In this document: one piece after another, positions 3,263-12,573 of the stretch
Numbering within the stretch: position 1 is the stretch's first letter
How the letters are laid out: every line of letters starts with the position of its first letter
NCBI GenBank assembly: GCA_903901425.1
Contig: CAIURC010000107.1
Location: forward strand, 1-64,000
DNA length: 64,000 nt
Origin: an uncultured Spartobacteria bacterium
GTDB lineage: Bacteria; Verrucomicrobiota; Verrucomicrobiia; Chthoniobacterales; Chthoniobacteraceae
Reading direction: 5' to 3'
Notes under the pieces: model-generated
The model's input: the letters and a program-made list of their open reading frames with translations, nothing else
What the model was told of the DNA's origin: nothing
The model's database searches: none
Made by a program: the position numbers and the translations under genes

Positions 3263-5356
3263 CTAAAACTGGAGGGATGCGCCGAGGTACAGGTTCCTGC
3301 CGTATGCGGGATCGATACCGTCGGCCCGGACCCGGGCATGGTACTCTTCGTCGAAGAGGTTGTTGATGCCGGCCATGAGAGTGACATGGTCACCAACGGG
3401 CAGTTCGGCAGTCAGATCCCAGGTTTGGTAGGCCGGGATGCGGAATCTGGGATCCGCGTCATCCCGTGCGCTGTGAGCGCCCATGAAGGTACCGAGGAAG
3501 GAGACCTTCCATTTTTTGAACCCGTAGACGAGGCCGGTGCGGAGCATGTGCGCGGGGGCGTACTGCGGGGAGCCGCCGTTGTTGGGGCCGCCGTACAAGC
3601 GGGCTTCGAGGAGCGTCAGGCTGCTGTAGAGGTTGAGCGAACCGAACCGGCTGCCCCAGTCCTCGCCGGCAGACTCGGCGGCAAGGCCGATGAGATCAAG
3701 CTGGAGAGCGGCATCCCATCCGTAGTTGATGCTCCGACCAACGCTGGTGAGCTGGTCATGGGCGACTCCAAACCGGTTATCGAGGTCGATCAGGAACACG
3801 CTGGTGTCGTAGGTCAACCAAGGCGTGGGGCGTCCACGGAAGCCGAGCTCGTAGTTCCAGCCGAGGCAGGGATCCGAGTTGGTCGCGGTGAGGCCCGGAG
3901 AAGCAACGATGGATTCGGTAAAGATGGTGGCCCTGTAGCTCTGGGAAACATTGGCGTACACTTGGTTTTCCCGGGGCAAATCATAGGCCACACCGAGGCC
4001 AAACAACGGCTGGTAGTCGGTCTTGTCGACCTCGGTTGCAAGGCTTCCATTCACCGACTTGCGCTGGACCTCCTGCTGGATGCGCTCCATCCGGAATCCC
4101 GGCGTCACGCTGAGGTTACCCCAGGTGAACTTGTTTTCCGCAAACGCAGACCAGTAAAAAACAGACCGATCGATGTCCCTTTGAAGGATGCCGGTGCGCG
4201 CATCCTTTTTCTGCCCTTCCCGCTCCTGACGCGGGGATTCCATGCCGTAGACTTGGAAGCCACCGGCAAGGGTGTGGCTTCCGCCGAGGCCGTCCCAGTC
4301 GTGTTTGAAGCGGGGTTCAAATCCGAGGCTGTAGAACTCCTGGCGTTCGATTGCGTTCCGGTCAGCGAGAGGCGCCACGCCAAAGACGTCCTTGCCCTGG
4401 AGAACGGGGTCGAGCTTTTGGCGGAAGCTGAGGCGGTCGTAGTAGGCAGCCCAGGTTTTGACGGAAAGCTCCGTGCCAGGCTGGACGGTGTGCTGGAGGT
4501 CAGCGGACGCCGCGTATCTCCGGATTGCGAGGCGGTCGTGTTGCCGGGTGCTTTTTGCCGGGGTTTCCGCGGCGTCCTTCTGGCTCAGGCCACCCGGTTC
4601 ACCGTTTTCCGCCTCGTAAAGGTCCAGGGCAAGCACCAGCCGGGTGTTCTGGCTGAACTCGTGCATCAGTTTGATCAGGCCGCCGTCGAGTTTGTAATCG
4701 CTGTTGTATTCGCGGAAACCGTCCGACTGCCGGTGATTGTAGTATCCGTAATAGCCTGTCTTGCCGGCTGTCCCGGAAAAGCTGGTGTAATTGCTGTAGA
4801 GGTTGTCCGTGCCGAAGATGCTCTGGGTCCGGAAACTGGCCACACGGTCCCTTGGGGGCATATGGGTGACGTAGTTGAGAACGCCGGCTGGCTGGGAACC
4901 GTACATGAGGCCACCGCCGCCCCGGATGAATTCGATCCGGTCCACCACGTCGAGGGGCGGCGTGTAGTAGGCTTCGGGGTACCCGAACGGATCGGCATGA
5001 ATCGGAATTCCGTCTTTGAGAACCTGGAGAAACTGCATCCGGTGGGGTTCGCCAATCCCGCGGTAGCCGAGGCTGACCAAGGGTGTGGTTTCCTCGGAAA
5101 AAAGGAGGCCCGGAGTCATGGCGAGGGCCTGTCGGTAGTTGTTGGCCTGAACCTTGGGCAGCGCATCCAAGTCGATCACAGTGGCGCGTTTGCCCGAAAA
5201 AATCCTGCCGTTTTCGACGGCAGGGAGGAACGGGTTTTGGATGATGCTGTCGTCCTCGGACTCGCCGTAGACCGTGACGGTTTCGAGGGTGGCCTGCTGG
5301 GCGGAAGCGAAAGGGGCAGCCAGGAGGAGGAAGAAGAAGCGCGCGGGGAGGTTCAT
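3263..5356 (-). CDS. TonB-dependent outer-membrane receptor (FecA-like)
   Basis: A 697-residue TonB-dependent receptor, the outer-membrane gate for energised uptake of a metal chelate. It has a signal peptide (MNLPARFFFLLLAAPFASAQ), a plug domain at about residues 40-180 with the segments YRQALAMTPGLLF and RIEFIRGGGGLMYG, and a barrel of about 500 residues ending in phenylalanine (LYLGASLQF). The plug resembles FecA/siderophore receptors. The track begins at 5479. I chose the ATG at 5356 because it opens directly on the signal peptide and leaves two Fur-box-like palindromes upstream rather than inside the gene; an ATG at 5377 is the alternative. No TonB, ABC importer or siderophore genes are adjacent, so the ligand is unknown; ferric chelate is likely. 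Confidence 0.9.
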   Translation of the reverse strand: MNLPARFFFLLLAAPFASAQQATLETVTVYGESEDDSIIQNPFLPAVENGRIFSGKRATVIDLDALPKVQANNYRQALAMTPGLLFSEETTPLVSLGYRGIGEPHRMQFLQVLKDGIPIHADPFGYPEAYYTPPLDVVDRIEFIRGGGGLMYGSQPAGVLNYVTHMPPRDRVASFRTQSIFGTDNLYSNYTSFSGTAGKTGYYGYYNHRQSDGFREYNSDYKLDGGLIKLMHEFSQNTRLVLALDLYEAENGEPGGLSQKDAAETPAKSTRQHDRLAIRRYAASADLQHTVQPGTELSVKTWAAYYDRLSFRQKLDPVLQGKDVFGVAPLADRNAIERQEFYSLGFEPRFKHDWDGLGGSHTLAGGFQVYGMESPRQEREGQKKDARTGILQRDIDRSVFYWSAFAENKFTWGNLSVTPGFRMERIQQEVQRKSVNGSLATEVDKTDYQPLFGLGVAYDLPRENQVYANVSQSYRATIFTESIVASPGLTATNSDPCLGWNYELGFRGRPTPWLTYDTSVFLIDLDNRFGVAHDQLTSVGRSINYGWDAALQLDLIGLAAESAGEDWGSRFGSLNLYSSLTLLEARLYGGPNNGGSPQYAPAHMLRTGLVYGFKKWKVSFLGTFMGAHSARDDADPRFRIPAYQTWDLTAELPVGDHVTLMAGINNLFDEEYHARVRADGIDPAYGRNLYLGASLQF

Positions 5357-5360
5357 GCTA

Positions 5361-5377
5361 TTGAGACTCTTTCTCAT
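5361..5377. promoter_or_regulatory. Fur-box-like palindrome, receptor-proximal
   Basis: TTGAGACTCTTTCTCAT reads as two opposed TTGAGA/ATGAGA half-sites and lies four bases upstream of the proposed receptor start. It resembles the palindrome at 5421-5437 and the pair in front of the outer-membrane protein gene at 12241. A Fur-family repressor is the obvious candidate, but no such regulator is encoded in the window. Confidence 0.5.
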
Positions 5378-5420
5378 GTGCGCAGCTTCGAGGAAACCCA
5401 CCCCGTCAAGCAAGTCTTTT

Positions 5421-5437
5421 TTGAGAGTGAGTCTCAA
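5421..5437. promoter_or_regulatory. Fur-box-like palindrome, receptor-distal
   Basis: TTGAGAGTGAGTCTCAA is an inverted repeat with perfect TTGAGA/TCTCAA arms, about 65 bases upstream of the receptor start. Paired operators at this spacing are typical of metal-regulated receptor promoters. Its core is nearly the same as TTGAGACCGGGTCTCAA at 12298-12314. Confidence 0.55.
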
Positions 5438-5450
5438 TCCCGGCTGGATC

Positions 5451-5954
5451 CTACTTCGTAAACACCGCCCACTGGCCAAGTCCTAGGATGATCCGGATGG
5501 TCTTGTGGCGGAACCCGAGAACCGTGGTGAGGTCGACGAGGTGATCGTGCGGGCTGGTCCGGCGCTGGTTAAGGCCGAGGGCTTCGGTGATTTTGAGCAG
5601 CCAGTCCATATGGGGGACCGGAGTGGTGAGGAGGAGTTTTCCGCCAGGTCGGAGGAGTTGGCGGCAAACTTCGAAACAGTCGACATGTTCAACCACCTCG
5701 AAAGCGATGATGGTGTCAAAAGATTCCGGCTGCAGGCCGAGTGTGCGCCATTGGTTGATATCGCCGACCAAATCGGCCGGCGGCTGGAGGTCGACCCCGG
5801 CGTAGTCGGTGTGGCCTGCAGCCGAAAGAGCTTCCCGCACCCAACCGGAGCCGGAGCCGATTTCGAGGATGCGACCAGGGCTGACGAGTTGAGGCTGAAA
5901 GAACTCGAGCCGCTTGCGGCGGGCCCAACCCTGGACTGGCGGCATGAGTTTCAC
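5451..5954 (-). CDS. Class I SAM-dependent methyltransferase
   Basis: A 167-residue methyltransferase with the glycine-rich motif I ILEIGSGSGWVREAL at about residue 30, an acidic residue closing strand 2 (YAGVDLQ), and the segment FDTIIAFEVVEHV followed by LLRPGGKLLLTTPVPH, typical of the Methyltransf_11 group. It begins with GTG at 5954, overlapping the stop of the glycosyltransferase gene as GTGA; an ATG at 5945 is the alternative. The tight coupling suggests that it modifies the same glycan or lipid-linked product as its neighbour, which is inference. The substrate is unknown. Confidence 0.8.
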   Translation of the reverse strand: MKLMPPVQGWARRKRLEFFQPQLVSPGRILEIGSGSGWVREALSAAGHTDYAGVDLQPPADLVGDINQWRTLGLQPESFDTIIAFEVVEHVDCFEVCRQLLRPGGKLLLTTPVPHMDWLLKITEALGLNQRRTSPHDHLVDLTTVLGFRHKTIRIILGLGQWAVFTK

Positions 5955-6700
5955 CGGAGCCTTCGGAGTTCAAGGAGCATGTCGATTCCCCAGTGGATGA
6001 CGTTGATGAGGTTGATGCTGTTCTGGCCGCCCTGTCTTTGAAGAAACCGGATGGGAACGCGCGCCCACCGGATTCCGGGCGTTTTTCGGAGGATAAAGGT
6101 AAGCGCAACATTGTGAATGTTGAAAGACGCCGGGATGCGTCGGAGCGCACTGGCGAGCACTTCCCGGCGGATGAGCCGGTAAGGGACGTTGGGATCCTCG
6201 AGGTCGCATCCACTCAGGAGGCTGGCGCCGAGTCGGCACAACTGGGAGGTAAATGCCCGTGCCGGGCCGTCGTCCCTCCGAACCCGGCGGCCGAAAATGC
6301 AGTCGGCGCTGGTGCGACGGCTCCAGAACTCGGCGAAATAAGCGGGGTCGCACTGTCCATCAGAATCGATCTGGAGGATCCATTCGACGCGCGGGGCGGC
6401 TACAGCGGCATCGTACCCAAGGCGGCAGGTGCGGCCGTGCCCGGAGTTGGTCTTGTCGACCACAACCACGCGGCGCGGATGCTCAGCTGAGATTGTTTTG
6501 AGTACGCTCAGGCTGGCATCGGAGGACCCATCGTTGAGAAGAATGAACTGGTAATCCACCCCCTGCCGGTCGAGCTCCTGCATCCAGGAGCCGACTACGG
6601 ACTGGATTGTTTGAGATTCGTTGTAGACGGGAACCACGATGGCCAGCGGAGCCTCCAGAAGTGCCGCAATCGAATCAGGGCGGAGGGATACAAGAGACAT
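5951..6700 (-). CDS. Family 2 glycosyltransferase (DPM1-like)
   Basis: A 249-residue GT-A fold glycosyltransferase. It contains LAIVVPVYNESQTIQSVV near the N-terminus, the LLNDGSSD motif at about residue 55, and the metal-binding IDSDGQCDP at about residue 115. It resembles dolichol-phosphate mannosyltransferase-like enzymes, which transfer a sugar to a lipid carrier. No membrane-anchoring C-terminal segments are present. It is the first gene of a two-gene unit with the methyltransferase. The upstream gap 6701-6921 should contain the promoter. Confidence 0.85.
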   Translation of the reverse strand: MSLVSLRPDSIAALLEAPLAIVVPVYNESQTIQSVVGSWMQELDRQGVDYQFILLNDGSSDASLSVLKTISAEHPRRVVVVDKTNSGHGRTCRLGYDAAVAAPRVEWILQIDSDGQCDPAYFAEFWSRRTSADCIFGRRVRRDDGPARAFTSQLCRLGASLLSGCDLEDPNVPYRLIRREVLASALRRIPASFNIHNVALTFILRKTPGIRWARVPIRFLQRQGGQNSINLINVIHWGIDMLLELRRLR

Positions 6701-6921
6701 GGTGGTGGCGCACTCCCGGGATGATTGAGGTGCCCGGGTGCGCGCAGCGTTTTTTCAGGAGGTCGTTTCCGGAAGGGCGGCAGAGAGCGTGCTTTTCATT
6801 CGAGACCGAGCGCCGGAGCGTACCGGCAGTCATCCCTAGGATTAAGCGATTTCGGGATGGGCATCAATCCGGCATTCCCGCAGGCGATCGCGTTGGCGGC
6901 GAGGGTTGCGCGGGGAGCGCT

Positions 6922-7740
6922 CTACTCAATTCGGATCACCAGCGGGCCACCTGGACTCTTGTCCACTGCTGCACGGCCCACGGACCAGCCTCCCTTGTAC
7001 AAGGCGGTGGAAGCGTAATTCCAAAAAGTGCCCACGCGTTTGGCGTCTCTGGTCGTGGCAGCCTCCACCACAATCTTGCGCTCGCCCCAAGAGCCGGATG
7101 CCAATGCTTTCTCCACCCCGTGGATCGAGGATACGATCTGCGAGAACCCGGCTGACTGTCCCAGTATTTTTTCTCCCGAAAGGGTCAGCGTGGATCCTTC
7201 GGTGGCCTTGGCTATCTCGTCTGGCGTGGCCGTGGCGGGCAGGGTATGCGTGGCTGGGAACCGGACGCTGTACCCGAGAATGACGTTCTGGCGTCTCCCG
7301 CCGCCTTTGCGCATTTCGCCCTGCACGGTCACTGAATCCTCAGAAAAGACCATCTCGAGCTCAAACCGGACCTTGTCTTCACAAAGGCCGACCATTTCGA
7401 TTTTTTTGGGTTGGATGGAGGGCTTCGGTTTTTTTTCGAGCTTGAGCAAGTCGAGGGATTCGCCCCTGCCGCCCTCCAGCTCGGCCACATTGAAATAAAG
7501 CTGGACCGGCTTACCGACGTCCTTGCCTTCACTCTGAGGTTGGACAGTCAAAATGCGGTCGGCATTCAGTTGAGCACGGTAGGTTTTTCCTTTGTAGAGC
7601 AGGTTCAATCCCTTGGCCTCCCCGGCAGCAAAAACCTCCAATTGAATGTCTTTTTCGGACGCGGCATCGGGCGCGGCAGAGAGCGGCACAGAACACAGGG
7701 GCAGGAGCAAAAAAGCAGCGGCAAGAAGGGTTTTGTTCAT
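6922..7740 (-). CDS. Secreted protein of unknown function
   Basis: A protein of about 272 residues with a clear signal peptide (MNKTLLAAAFLLLPLCSVPLSA) and a beta-rich mature part without cysteine pairs or enzyme motifs I recognise. The track extends to a GTG at 7761, and an ATG at 7755 is also possible; I chose 7740 because it gives the best signal peptide. It faces away from the large kinase gene across a gap of about 220 bases, so divergent promoters probably lie between them. I do not recognise the family. Confidence 0.7.
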   Translation of the reverse strand: MNKTLLAAAFLLLPLCSVPLSAAPDAASEKDIQLEVFAAGEAKGLNLLYKGKTYRAQLNADRILTVQPQSEGKDVGKPVQLYFNVAELEGGRGESLDLLKLEKKPKPSIQPKKIEMVGLCEDKVRFELEMVFSEDSVTVQGEMRKGGGRRQNVILGYSVRFPATHTLPATATPDEIAKATEGSTLTLSGEKILGQSAGFSQIVSSIHGVEKALASGSWGERKIVVEAATTRDAKRVGTFWNYASTALYKGGWSVGRAAVDKSPGGPLVIRIE

Positions 7741-7963
7741 GGGGTTGAAAAACATTTTCACGCGGGTGAACTGGTTGCAATTTTAAAAGGCTAGGCATTG
7801 CAGGAATCCGCTTTTTATCGGATTCTTCGCTGGTTTCGGGACTCCGGTTTGCCTCCGTGTGCATTCTGGGCGCCTCTGGATTCGAAACCCTGCCTCCCCA
7901 TCGCATGTGCCCGGCAGAACAGCTCGCTTTTCCGCAGCTCACCTCCCCCGCGAGGCACCTCCT

Positions 7964-10900
7964 GTGAACGCCCATCCGGCTCCCAATTCCAACTCCATTC
8001 GAGAGAACCGGGTGCTGACCCTGTGGGACCCCAACCGCCCGGACGCCACCCTGAGCCTCCGTTTCCCGCCCCAAGACGAGCCACTCGATTCGGGATCTGG
8101 GATTTCGATGGAAAAATCTTATGTGCTCGGCCCGGTGGTCGCCCGGGGGGGGATGGGGCAGATCTTTTCCGCGTCCGATCCGCTCCTGGAACGGGAGGTG
8201 GCGATCAAGGTGAACACGGCCGCGGATCGGAGCGAGGACCCGCTTTTTTTGAGGGAAGCCCGGGTGCTGGCCCAGTTGGCGCATCCGAACATTGTGCCGA
8301 TCCACGATTTTGGGAAGAACGCGGGAGGCCAGCCGTTCTACTCGATGAAGCTGGTGCGGGGACAAACGCTGAAAGCGTTGCTTGAAGCGGTCCGCGCGGG
8401 AAAGACGCATGTTTCAACGGCAAACTTGCTCCTGATTTTCCGAAAAATTTGTGATGCGGTGGCGTTTGCGCATTCCCGCGGGTTCCTCCACCGCGACTTG
8501 AAGCCCGAGAATGTGATGCTGGGGGAATACGGGGAAGTGCTGGTGATGGACTGGGGATTGGCGCTCAGAATGAATGAGCGGGGGGCGGCCCCGGGCGTCA
8601 CGGAGGGGGAAACTCCACTGATTGAGGGAACTCCGCAGTATATGGCTCCCGAACAGGCGAATGGCGACACGCTGGATGTCCGCTCAGACGTTTACGCGTT
8701 GGGAGCCACACTGTACTCCCTCCTCAGCGGTCAGCTTCCCGTAACCGGCGCTACCCTCGAGGAGATCCTCGGGAAGGTGCGGCGCGGCGATGTGCTGGAC
8801 AAAGATCCAAGCCTTGCTCCGACACGAATCCCTCCAGGGCTGAGGGCGGTTATCACCAAAGCGACGGCGTTCCATCCTTACAACCGCTACCCAGATGTCT
8901 CCGGGCTTTTGGCAGATCTGGACGCGTATCTGGCCGGGTTCGCCACGGAAGCCGAGCATGCCGGGCTTTTTCGGCAGCTCCTGCTTCTGGTCCGGCGGCA
9001 CCGGATTGCGGCAGGATTGACGGCCATACTTCTGCTCACCGCAGCGGGATTCACGCTCAGCCTGATTGCAAGCCAGCGCCAATCCGCCCTGCACGCCCGC
9101 GATGCACAGGCGCAGTCCCAGCGGGCACGGGAAAACGAAAGCCGGGCCATCGGCAACGAGGAGCGTGCACTGGCCAGCGCACGCGCGGCGCGGCAATCGG
9201 CGGCGGAGGCGACACTGGCGCTGGCAGAAGTCGCAGAGGAAGGCGGGCACGGCGGCGAGTTGCAGCGGGCGCTCACGCGGGTCCCGGAAGAGTTCCGGAG
9301 CCAACTCTGGCGGTACATGCACGACCGCCTTGACAAGGCGGAACTCACCTTCCTGGCGAGTCACGCAAACCGGCCGTGGATGACATGCGCCGCCGACGCC
9401 TCCGGCCCGCACCATCTCCTGGCTTTGGATGAGGCCGGCCGCCTCGCATCCCTCGATCTGGTTTCAGGCACCCAGACCACCGTCTGCACCGTGCCCCCCG
9501 AAGGCCTCGAGGATCTCCTAGTCGTCTCGCCCGACGGCTCCCGCGTTGTTTTGGTCCGACTTGCCCCCGAAAATCCGAACACGTTCCGAATCGAGATGCT
9601 GGAACGCGCCACCGGGAAACTGCTCTGGACTCTCGACCTGCCTCGAGGCGAGGAAAGGTTCAAGCCCTCGTTGCCCGTCTTCGACAGAAGCGGTTGCGTC
9701 CTGATCATGAGCTCGCTCAGCGGGGGCGGTGTTTTGGCAGCCCATGCATGGACAGGCACCCTCCTGTGGCATGCCCCCGAGGAAGAACGGGCCACCGCTC
9801 AGTGCGCCGGAAAAACCGCCCAAGTTTTCGTCTACTCCATCCTCCGTGGCTATTCCCGCCGGGACCTGTGGACCGGTGCCGTCCTCCACTCTGCCCCAGA
9901 ACAGAAATTTCCGAGCGGTAATCTTTCAGGCACAAAAGTGTGTTACGACCCCTTCTCGCTGCAACTCTACTTTCAACACCGCGGAGCGATTCAACGGATG
10001 GACGGACGCTCCCTTGAAACCGCCAGCGCATGCCCCCTCCCGGGAGGCGCCCATTTCCTCGGTGACTTCACTCATCTCCCCCGCAGGAACGTTGTGGCGC
10101 TGCTCGTGCGCGAATCCGATGCCTCCTCCCGTTTACAGTTCTGGGATGCTCACAGCGGAACACTTCTTCGGGAGGTGCTCGGGCCCGGGTCGCGAGGAAA
10201 TTCCAACCGCTGGAATCTGTTTTCCACACCCGTCCCCGGCCAGGTCGCGCTGCTCCAAGGGCTCCGGATCAAGACATGGACCCTGCCCCGGGTCTCCCCC
10301 ACATGGCGCGCTTCGGTCGAGCCCGACGACTTTTTCGACTCCTTCGCCTTTCTGCAAGACCCGGATGCCGCCGCGGCCCTCTACCGGAAATGGTCGGGCC
10401 CCAACTGGTATACGGAAATTGGCGTGGTGGACATCCGCCACACCCCATCCGGTGCCCTCTCCGGCCGGTCTCTGAGCCCCAACCCGAACAAAAACAACAC
10501 GCGCGGGACCCTTTCCACCAACCGGGACGGCACCCTACTCGCCACGGTCCGGCACGACCCGGCCCAGAATAGTTTCGTGCTCCGCCTTTTTTCAGGCAGC
10601 CATGCCGAGAACCCGGGCCCCCAACTTCCACTTCCGGACTGGCACCGCGGCAGCGCCCATCTGAACCCCTCCGGCACCCGCGTCTGGCTGGGAACTGCCG
10701 TCTGGGAGGTTGCCTCCGGGAGTCTCCAGAAAATCCAACGCAATGGCCTGCTCCAGCCCCCGGAAAAGGCCCGGGCCCCGCGCTGGCTGGACGACTCACG
10801 CATCCTCGAGATCGCGATGACTGTGGCATCCAACTCCCCGGGAGCGCCCAAACAGGAACGCCAAATCGTTCTTTGGGACGCAGTCTCTGGTGTCCGGATT

Positions 10901-11290
10901 GCCTCTGTGAACGCTCCCACCGCCCGCTGTATTTCGCCCGACCCGGCTGGCAACCAGTTTGCCGAAGGCGGCACGGACCGTCGGGTCCGAATCCGGGACG
11001 GCACTAACCTTGCCCTTCTCAAGGAACTGCGGGTACACGACGGAGCGCTGTCAGCCATTGCATGGCATCCCAATCTGCCCATCGTCGCCACCGCTTCCGA
11101 AGACCGGACCGTCCGGCTTTGGAACGTTCAAACCGAGGAGCAGTTGGAGGAATACGGCGTGTTCCACAGGCTGCCCGACCGCCTCTTCTGGGATCCCTCC
11201 GGAACGCGCCTCGCTGTGCTGAGCCGGGACGGCGAAGCCACCGTGGACATCTTCCGGCCCGCGTGTGTTTTGAAGTCAACCGTCCGGTGA
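7964..11290 (+). CDS. Ser/Thr protein kinase with WD40/propeller C-terminus
   Basis: A membrane-anchored eukaryotic-type kinase of about 1108 residues. The kinase domain spans about residues 50-330: glycine loop ARGGMGQIF, VAIKV with the ATP lysine near residue 82, catalytic HRDLKPEN with Asp near 178, and DWG in place of DFG near 196, followed by YMAPEQ. A transmembrane helix (ILLLTAAGFTLSLIA) near residue 350 is followed by an Ala/Arg-rich coiled coil and about 650 residues of WD40-like repeats, for example EDRTVRLWNVQTEEQLEEY, presumably extracytoplasmic. The track starts at 7859 (GTG); I prefer the GTG at 7964 because third codon positions become strongly G/C only from there. Such kinase-propeller fusions are common in Verrucomicrobiota and Planctomycetes. 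Substrates are unknown. Confidence 0.88.
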   Translation: MNAHPAPNSNSIRENRVLTLWDPNRPDATLSLRFPPQDEPLDSGSGISMEKSYVLGPVVARGGMGQIFSASDPLLEREVAIKVNTAADRSEDPLFLREARVLAQLAHPNIVPIHDFGKNAGGQPFYSMKLVRGQTLKALLEAVRAGKTHVSTANLLLIFRKICDAVAFAHSRGFLHRDLKPENVMLGEYGEVLVMDWGLALRMNERGAAPGVTEGETPLIEGTPQYMAPEQANGDTLDVRSDVYALGATLYSLLSGQLPVTGATLEEILGKVRRGDVLDKDPSLAPTRIPPGLRAVITKATAFHPYNRYPDVSGLLADLDAYLAGFATEAEHAGLFRQLLLLVRRHRIAAGLTAILLLTAAGFTLSLIASQRQSALHARDAQAQSQRARENESRAIGNEERALASARAARQSAAEATLALAEVAEEGGHGGELQRALTRVPEEFRSQLWRYMHDRLDKAELTFLASHANRPWMTCAADASGPHHLLALDEAGRLASLDLVSGTQTTVCTVPPEGLEDLLVVSPDGSRVVLVRLAPENPNTFRIEMLERATGKLLWTLDLPRGEERFKPSLPVFDRSGCVLIMSSLSGGGVLAAHAWTGTLLWHAPEEERATAQCAGKTAQVFVYSILRGYSRRDLWTGAVLHSAPEQKFPSGNLSGTKVCYDPFSLQLYFQHRGAIQRMDGRSLETASACPLPGGAHFLGDFTHLPRRNVVALLVRESDASSRLQFWDAHSGTLLREVLGPGSRGNSNRWNLFSTPVPGQVALLQGLRIKTWTLPRVSPTWRASVEPDDFFDSFAFLQDPDAAAALYRKWSGPNWYTEIGVVDIRHTPSGALSGRSLSPNPNKNNTRGTLSTNRDGTLLATVRHDPAQNSFVLRLFSGSHAENPGPQLPLPDWHRGSAHLNPSGTRVWLGTAVWEVASGSLQKIQRNGLLQPPEKARAPRWLDDSRILEIAMTVASNSPGAPKQERQIVLWDAVSGVRIASVNAPTARCISPDPAGNQFAEGGTDRRVRIRDGTNLALLKELRVHDGALSAIAWHPNLPIVATASEDRTVRLWNVQTEEQLEEYGVFHRLPDRLFWDPSGTRLAVLSRDGEATVDIFRPACVLKSTVR

Positions 11291-11317
11291 AACCGGAGTG
11301 TGCAGGGAAGACAGGTT

Positions 11318-12241
11318 TCAGCGGCCGAACATAGATGCCGGCGAACTGATCGACCCCTCCTCGTTGGCCCCGCGCGGACCGCCAAACCGGATTCCCGCCA
11401 CCACAAAGATTTCGGCCCGTGGGGCAGCATCGGTGCAACCAAAGAGCGGGGCCACGTTGATGAAAGTATCGTTGGTCGGCTTGAAGTTGAAGCTCGGTCC
11501 GATCAGAAACTCGTACTCGGCGCTGCCCCGGCTGGATTTGTCCGTTTTCCGTTCCCAGAGCGTTTCGAGGCCAATGTTCAGCTTGTTGTCCACGAGCGCG
11601 TAACTGAGGGCGCTGGTAGCTGACCACTCCTGTTCTCTGGCGCCACCTGTCTCATTTTCAAACGAGATGTTCGCCGCAAACTGCCAGCGCTTTGCAAAAA
11701 CCTCGCCCATCAAAAGCTTCGCCTCGTACGCGTCCGACGCGTTGTCGTTAAACATCCACTCGAAGTACAGGGTAGGATTCAGCGGGATCTTTCCCCAGTC
11801 CGCCAAAGCATACCGGACCTCCACACTCGAGCCCTTGTAAAAACCACGTCCACCCCCGTCGATTCCATAGTTCTGGTAGAGGTCCAACTGGAACCGGTGC
11901 GGCAACCCAATCTCCACCTCGGTCCGCATCCCATGCTCGACCTCGTTTGACCCCTTCGAAAACTCCGGGGTCCAGAACTGGACGATTTCGACCTGGCCCT
12001 CTGGCCGGACATAAACCCGACTGCTGGTGAAGTTGGGCTGGGTGGTCCAATAAGGCTGGTTGTAAGGCCCCACCGGATCCTGCTGACTGGTGATAGGCCG
12101 GAGGGTTTGCGAGGATCCGGTCACCAGAATCTCCGGGAGCGACTCGCCCCTCGCAGCGGGTGTTTTGGGAACAGGACTCTGGGCGGAGACCGAAAAAACA
12201 GAGGACGCAAGAATCGAGAGGAGGAAGGGTTGGATTTTCAT
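11318..12241 (-). CDS. Outer-membrane beta-barrel protein, probably metal-regulated
   Basis: A 307-residue exported protein: signal peptide MKIQPFLLSILASSVFSVSAQ, a short proline-rich linker, then alternating aromatic/polar strands (for example FQLDLYQNYGIDG and PTLYFEWMFND) that look like a small barrel, ending with FVVAGIRFGG. I do not recognise a specific transporter family. The track starts at 12271; the ATG at 12241 gives the signal peptide and leaves a palindrome just upstream. Two Fur-box-like palindromes precede it, matching those of the TonB-dependent receptor, so metal-limited expression is likely. It is convergent with the kinase gene, with a gap of 27 bases. Confidence 0.75.
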   Translation of the reverse strand: MKIQPFLLSILASSVFSVSAQSPVPKTPAARGESLPEILVTGSSQTLRPITSQQDPVGPYNQPYWTTQPNFTSSRVYVRPEGQVEIVQFWTPEFSKGSNEVEHGMRTEVEIGLPHRFQLDLYQNYGIDGGGRGFYKGSSVEVRYALADWGKIPLNPTLYFEWMFNDNASDAYEAKLLMGEVFAKRWQFAANISFENETGGAREQEWSATSALSYALVDNKLNIGLETLWERKTDKSSRGSAEYEFLIGPSFNFKPTNDTFINVAPLFGCTDAAPRAEIFVVAGIRFGGPRGANEEGSISSPASMFGR

Positions 12242-12247
12242 GCAGTT

Positions 12248-12266
12248 AATGAGACTGAATCCCATT
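12248..12266. promoter_or_regulatory. Fur-box-like palindrome, start-proximal
   Basis: AATGAGACTGAATCCCATT is an imperfect 19-base palindrome with 9-1-9 geometry, six bases upstream of the outer-membrane protein start. Its position relative to the start codon is nearly the same as that of 5361-5377 relative to the receptor start. Confidence 0.45.
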
Positions 12267-12297
12267 ACCAAACAGAAACCGCACCCATCAAGCCTTT

Positions 12298-12314
12298 TTG
12301 AGACCGGGTCTCAA
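12298..12314. promoter_or_regulatory. Fur-box-like palindrome, start-distal
   Basis: TTGAGACCGGGTCTCAA is a perfect 8-1-8 palindrome and the best example of the motif in the window. It lies about 57 bases upstream of the outer-membrane protein start, in the 89-base gap to the 3' end of the CDGSH gene. Confidence 0.6.
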
Positions 12315-12330: not shown

Positions 12331-12573
12331 TCAGCTCAGCTTTGAATGACTCCCGTCGCAGGTCGCGCCCGCAGCGCTCTTTTTGCAGCCGCAGAAATAC
12401 ACGGTACCCGTCTTTTCCGCCTTGTACGGAACGGGACTAAATCCTGTGCCCTTGTGGCTGCCGTCGCACAACGGCTGGGTGGCGCTGCGGCCGCAGGAAC
12501 ACCAGTAGTAGGTTTTACCGGCTTCAACTTCCGTGGGATACGGTCCGCGCTTGGCAATGATCGGTTCGCTCAT
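12331..12573 (-). CDS. Double CDGSH iron-sulfur protein
   Basis: An 80-residue protein with two CDGSH-type 2Fe-2S sites: WCSCGRSATQPLCDGSHKG and FCGCKKSAAGATCDGSH. Each supplies three cysteines and one histidine, as in the mitoNEET superfamily. Members act in iron or redox homeostasis; a precise bacterial role is not established. The track extends to 12747, but the start at 12573 (MSEPIIAKRGPYP) matches the usual short form of the family and avoids overlap with the divergent gene at 12668. Its 3' end lies next to the Fur-like operator of the outer-membrane protein gene, in keeping with an iron-related neighbourhood. Confidence 0.9.
   Translation of the reverse strand: MSEPIIAKRGPYPTEVEAGKTYYWCSCGRSATQPLCDGSHKGTGFSPVPYKAEKTGTVYFCGCKKSAAGATCDGSHSKLS

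Follow-up and report, generated by a model that had tools for sequence, protein, structure and literature searches.

In Escherichia coli, the Fur box is the 7-1-7 inverted repeat TGATAAT-N-ATTATCA. The palindromes studied here, located in a 64-kb stretch of DNA from an uncultured Spartobacteria bacterium (the window), resemble it in being 15-bp 7-1-7 inverted repeats and in being placed before tonB-type receptor, feo and fur genes. Each half-site agrees with the E. coli heptamer at five of seven positions (TGA.A.T); at the two others G and C stand where E. coli has T and A (TGAGACT or TGCGACT). Fur boxes differ among taxa (PMC7536154). A further difference is that the palindromes normally come as two distinct copies, spaced by 25-33 or 60-66 bp, rather than as a single extended box. 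Half-sites of the TTGCAA/TCGCAA type in the feoAB1 operator of Magnetospirillum Fur are similar to the TTGCGA variant found here, and that operator also precedes feo, but its core is different; binding was shown for the Magnetospirillum operator (PMC4506495). A literature search of open-licence papers found no published Fur regulon for Verrucomicrobiota.

Two window genes are preceded by the palindromes. The first encodes a TonB-dependent receptor, with plug and barrel domains both above cut-off. Its closest solved relative is the ferric dicitrate receptor FecA of E. coli, with a match covering the full-length plug and barrel (4e-38 for the receptor family profile against the FecA structure 1kmo). 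The receptor is named FecA-like only, because its score with the FecA equivalog NF041676 (124.5 bits) is far under the cut-off of 1100 bits. No N-terminal signalling domain was found in the receptor and, as the FecA match begins at profile position 99, this domain appears to be absent. The second gene encodes an outer-membrane (OM) protein that matches the Phenol_MetA_deg barrels (PF13557) and is related to the DUF6662 barrels (PF20367) by profile-profile homology only. We propose, with a probability of roughly 0.87, that the four palindromes would be operators, two per gene, for a repressor of the Fur family that most likely senses iron.

Four palindromes in the window

The genes and boxes are listed below; no strand is assigned to the boxes, whose scores were obtained with a matrix built from relatives only (see below).

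3263-5356, minus strand: gene of the FecA-like TonB-dependent receptor; start codon ATG at 5356, with another ATG in frame at 5377; Pfam Plug 3e-11, TonB barrel 5e-34
5361-5377 (TTGAGACTCTTTCTCAT): receptor gene, start-proximal Fur-type box (box 2); 23.9 bits, rank 1 of the 64-kb window
5421-5437 (TTGAGAGTGAGTCTCAA): receptor gene, upstream Fur-type box (box 1); 22.8 bits, rank 3; the same pair is present in orthologues
11318-12241, minus strand: gene of the OM protein, of beta-barrel type and with a signal-like segment at its N terminus; PF13557 38.6 bits (gathering cut-off 22); distant relative of DUF6662
12249-12265 (ATGAGACTGAATCCCAT): OM gene, start-proximal Fur-type box (box 2); 23.1 bits, rank 2
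12298-12314 (TTGAGACCGGGTCTCAA): OM gene, upstream Fur-type box (box 1); 21.5 bits, rank 4; consensus matched perfectly

All four sites conform to TTG[A/C]GACT-n-AGTC[T/G]CAA, a 7-1-7 inverted repeat with the TGA...TCA ends of a Fur box. Three of them were present exactly where the initial annotation had placed them (5361-5377, 5421-5437 and 12298-12314), but the fourth, given there as 12248-12266, is best described as the 17-mer 12249-12265. The spacing is not the same at the two genes, as had been claimed: the boxes are 60 bp apart (centre to centre) at the receptor gene and 49 bp apart at the OM gene. The distance from box 2 to the start codon, initially given as 4-6 bases, is 4 nt at the receptor gene (ATG at 5356) and 7 nt at the OM gene (ATG at 12241). 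At both genes box 1 has retained its place immediately before a CTTG -35-like element. Box 2 is shifted by about 20-30 bp downstream compared with many relatives, so that it adjoins the ATG, and could overlap an alternative in-frame start (MRKSLNS- and MGFSLIN-). A canonical sigma-70 promoter was found at neither locus.

The initial annotation considered this arrangement unlikely by chance. Simple consensus scans gave weak support: allowing up to 3 mismatches, the window contained 4 matches, and 9 of 100 shuffled sequences contained as many. The site at 12249-12265 is missed by such a scan at 3 mismatches. When the genome was scanned with up to 2 mismatches, 10 sites were found versus 12 in the backward control. 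Five of the ten are iron loci and five lie inside reading frames, and the plain consensus was rejected as a regulon finder for this genome. The exact perfect palindrome was equally unsuitable as a phylum marker; it occurs in only 2 of 289 genomes, so a degenerate matrix was needed.

A symmetric 21-bp matrix was built from 92 sites taken solely from receptor promoters of named genomes, with no window sequence included; its consensus is TTGMGACT-n-AGTCKCAA. With this matrix the result was decisive. The four sites occupied ranks 1-4 in the 64-kb window (23.9, 23.1, 22.8 and 21.5 bits), the next position scored 11.7 bits, and the best scores in 20 Markov-shuffled 64-kb windows were between 10.9 and 18.6 bits. 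Although the record of a fairly close relative (G112; its receptor is 67% identical) is part of the training set, protein-level identities are 40-63% for the receptors behind most training promoters, and thus the agreement is not simple recent descent. Outside the window, the matrix was applied to about 230 kb of this genome. The palindromes are real.

Conservation and further targets of the boxes

Receptor orthologues were gathered from the order and from named genomes. Lack of conservation in related species had been named as an outcome that would speak against the Fur-box reading; instead, 48 of 55 FecA-like receptor promoters in named Verrucomicrobiota genomes carry a box of at least 18 bits, and 33 of the 55 carry two or more, with spacings clustering at 25-33 bp and 60-66 bp. 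Box density is 3.4 per kb in receptor promoters, a figure favoured by training, versus 0.018 per kb in the surrounding DNA. None of the regions scanned at the six other TonB receptors of this genome reached 14 bits. In many relatives a TTG -35-like element and a TAAA -10-like element flank the second box, which takes up their 17-bp spacer (TTGACA-N17-TAAACA in L200). The -35/-10 spacer is a classic position for repressor binding. The boxes are conserved across the bacterial order.

These data bear on two other interpretations. Perfect or near-perfect inverted repeats might be RNA hairpins or terminators, or chance repeats, and the genome-wide consensus count did not exceed the control. Taking into account that neither locus has a terminator-like site (the A/T run is on the wrong side), that the four sites are isolated top scorers in the window and that the boxes are conserved at varied distances across families, we consider this highly improbable; it is largely refuted by the conservation. 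The other interpretation accepts the upstream box as the operator and regards the start-proximal one as coding sequence or a weak relic. The start-proximal palindromes can indeed be read as coding from the upstream in-frame ATG (MRKSLNS, MGFSLIN), and the one at 12249 has an imperfect arm. It is precisely these two, however, that rank highest of all positions by the independent matrix, most of the 55 receptor promoters have at least two boxes, and an OM barrel gene of a relative (G054) shows the same paired layout with the second box 2 nt before its ATG. A single operator is therefore improbable, and we continue to regard both boxes of each pair as putative operators.

The initial annotation described a two-gene regulon. 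This is too narrow, because in this genome a third pair, scoring 21.7 and 21.6 bits and spaced by 25 bp, is located 30 nt before feoA-feoA-feoB, which encode the ferrous-iron importer; the background score in the same 16 kb is 7.9 bits, and at least three operons are thus boxed here, with more in relatives. A looser pattern matched well above the backward control in 44 relatives, and the matches outside receptor promoters precede feoA, feoB, feoA-feoB fusions, OprB porins and DUF6662-type barrels. At named loci, 17 strong matches were found outside receptor promoters, most of them before exbB, a tonB-like gene, a second siderophore-type receptor, feoA or fur, the last adjoining a ferritin-like gene. 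Some of these target genes were named from profile scans, the remainder by reading translations. In one genus (g30, L341-L345) the order is exbB-exbD-tonB-[box box]-FecA-like receptor-fur-[box]-feoA::feoB fusion. The matches are thus not scattered without metal-related genes, the other outcome that would have counted against the proposed iron link; that link and the Fur-box reading find support in the deep conservation, in feo, exbB, tonB and fur as further targets and in the fur gene inside the g30 cluster, and the initial interpretation holds in large part.

Boxes were also seen near the start of OprB-type porins and of another porin-like OM protein in relatives (L208:3824, L213:3937, L347:1501). 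A weaker box (about 17 bits) is present in two g30 genomes before a gene that reads like a succinyl-CoA synthetase beta subunit (L222:3983, L225:4173).

Candidate regulator

The genome encodes three Fur-family proteins, designated C71, C63 and C28 after their contigs. The closest PDB entries to the C71 protein (gene at C71:7759-8229) are 6d57/4ets (4e-20), which we take to be Campylobacter-type Fur. Its recognition helix keeps the Tyr-Arg pair (ATVYRTL), which in the structure of Magnetospirillum Fur with its operator touches T and G bases (PMC4506495). The fur gene directly behind the receptor in the g30 cluster is an orthologue of C71 Fur, and a C71-type Fur is encoded in all 23 genomes with a boxed receptor versus one of six without (Fisher 5e-5, a value inflated by phylogeny, as most non-carriers belong to one family). 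These observations suggest that C71 Fur is the likely repressor of the boxed genes; against this, its own gene lacks a box in this genome.

C28 is a paralogue with a Tyr-Asn recognition pair, which heads the suf operon. A different conserved box, TTTAGAATnATTCTTGA, was found some 50-180 nt ahead of the suf-linked Fur-family gene, which heads sufCBD, in 29 of 29 orthologous promoters (L232-L260); the reversed control gave 8. We rejected C28 as the binder of the window boxes, since possession of a distinct box of its own argues against this role. TTTAGAATnATTCTTGA resembles PerR/Irr boxes; the promoter of the C28 gene of this genome (C28:13-480, G000) is cut off by the contig end. C63 adjoins a metal-ATPase gene.

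That the boxes serve one of these paralogues, C63 or the suf-linked C28, or that they respond to a metal other than iron, for example zinc or manganese, is unlikely, if slightly less so than the single operator. Three Fur-family proteins are encoded, 7-1-7 boxes are common to Zur and PerR, and in one relative a NicO-type transporter gene has a box. In contrast, the C63 type is absent from 11 of the 23 boxed-receptor genomes (threshold E <= 1e-18), C28 has the box and the recognition pair described above, the targets feoAB, exbB, tonB and the FecA-like receptor are iron genes, and it is a C71-type fur that lies inside the g30 cluster.

For C71 Fur, we infer the following mechanism. With plentiful iron, metal-loaded Fur dimers, most likely of C71 Fur, would occupy both boxes of each promoter, and the dimers at box 1, upstream of the CTTG -35-like element, and at box 2, in the start region, would block RNA polymerase. 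Under iron shortage Fur would come off the DNA and the boxed genes would be expressed; in this genome these would be the FecA-like receptor (3263-5356), the OM barrel protein (11318-12241) and feoA-feoA-feoB. The exact geometry of blocking is a guess, because no canonical promoter was found at the receptor or the OM locus.

The outer-membrane protein and its proposed place in the regulon

DUF6662-type barrels with a box were found in five relatives (G054, G060, G078, G124 and G043). The window OM protein gave no direct DUF6662 match above the gathering cut-off, but its profile aligned with those of the box-bearing barrels with an hhalign probability of 98.3%. The most similar proteins within the genus and family (L062-L069) are encoded by genes with no box, and the box at the OM gene therefore represents a local gain or loss. 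In another family of the order (f8), the OM-protein homologues (L261-L272) adjoin czcR/czcS-type heavy-metal two-component genes, mostly above the curated cut-off, and in some of these genomes a TonB receptor or an NRAMP transporter gene is also adjacent. A single-sequence fold of the OM protein was unusable (mean pLDDT 34), and a literature search found no paper on the function of DUF6662.

Two neighbouring genes were also noted. A twin-CDGSH iron-sulfur protein gene (12331-12573, minus strand) immediately precedes the OM gene in the same orientation, and box 1 of the latter falls between the two genes. A large Ser/Thr kinase with C-terminal WD40 repeats is encoded between the receptor and OM genes (7859-11290, plus strand).

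The initial annotation predicted that the OM protein takes part in metal uptake. The boxed homologous barrels and the metal-related neighbours in f8 support a metal link, while the closest homologues without a box do not; a metal role is likely and uptake is plausible, and the protein may be an iron-starvation outer-membrane channel or helper. A broader proposal, which we put forward tentatively and at somewhat less than even odds, is that barrels of the widespread DUF6662/PF13557 superfamily would act as Fur-controlled iron-starvation channels in Verrucomicrobiota, recruited repeatedly and separately under paired boxes, beside FecA-like/Feo uptake.

For the most part, the proposed iron-starvation switch is an ordinary one of a known kind. 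What is new, and apparently undescribed, is the box consensus of this lineage and the place of the OM protein in the regulon. TTGMGACT-n-AGTCKCAA, usually paired, provides a usable Fur-box model for Verrucomicrobiota, which lets iron genes be found by sequence. An OM protein family of unassigned function gains a testable role in iron starvation, and its window member is likely to be an iron-stress protein.
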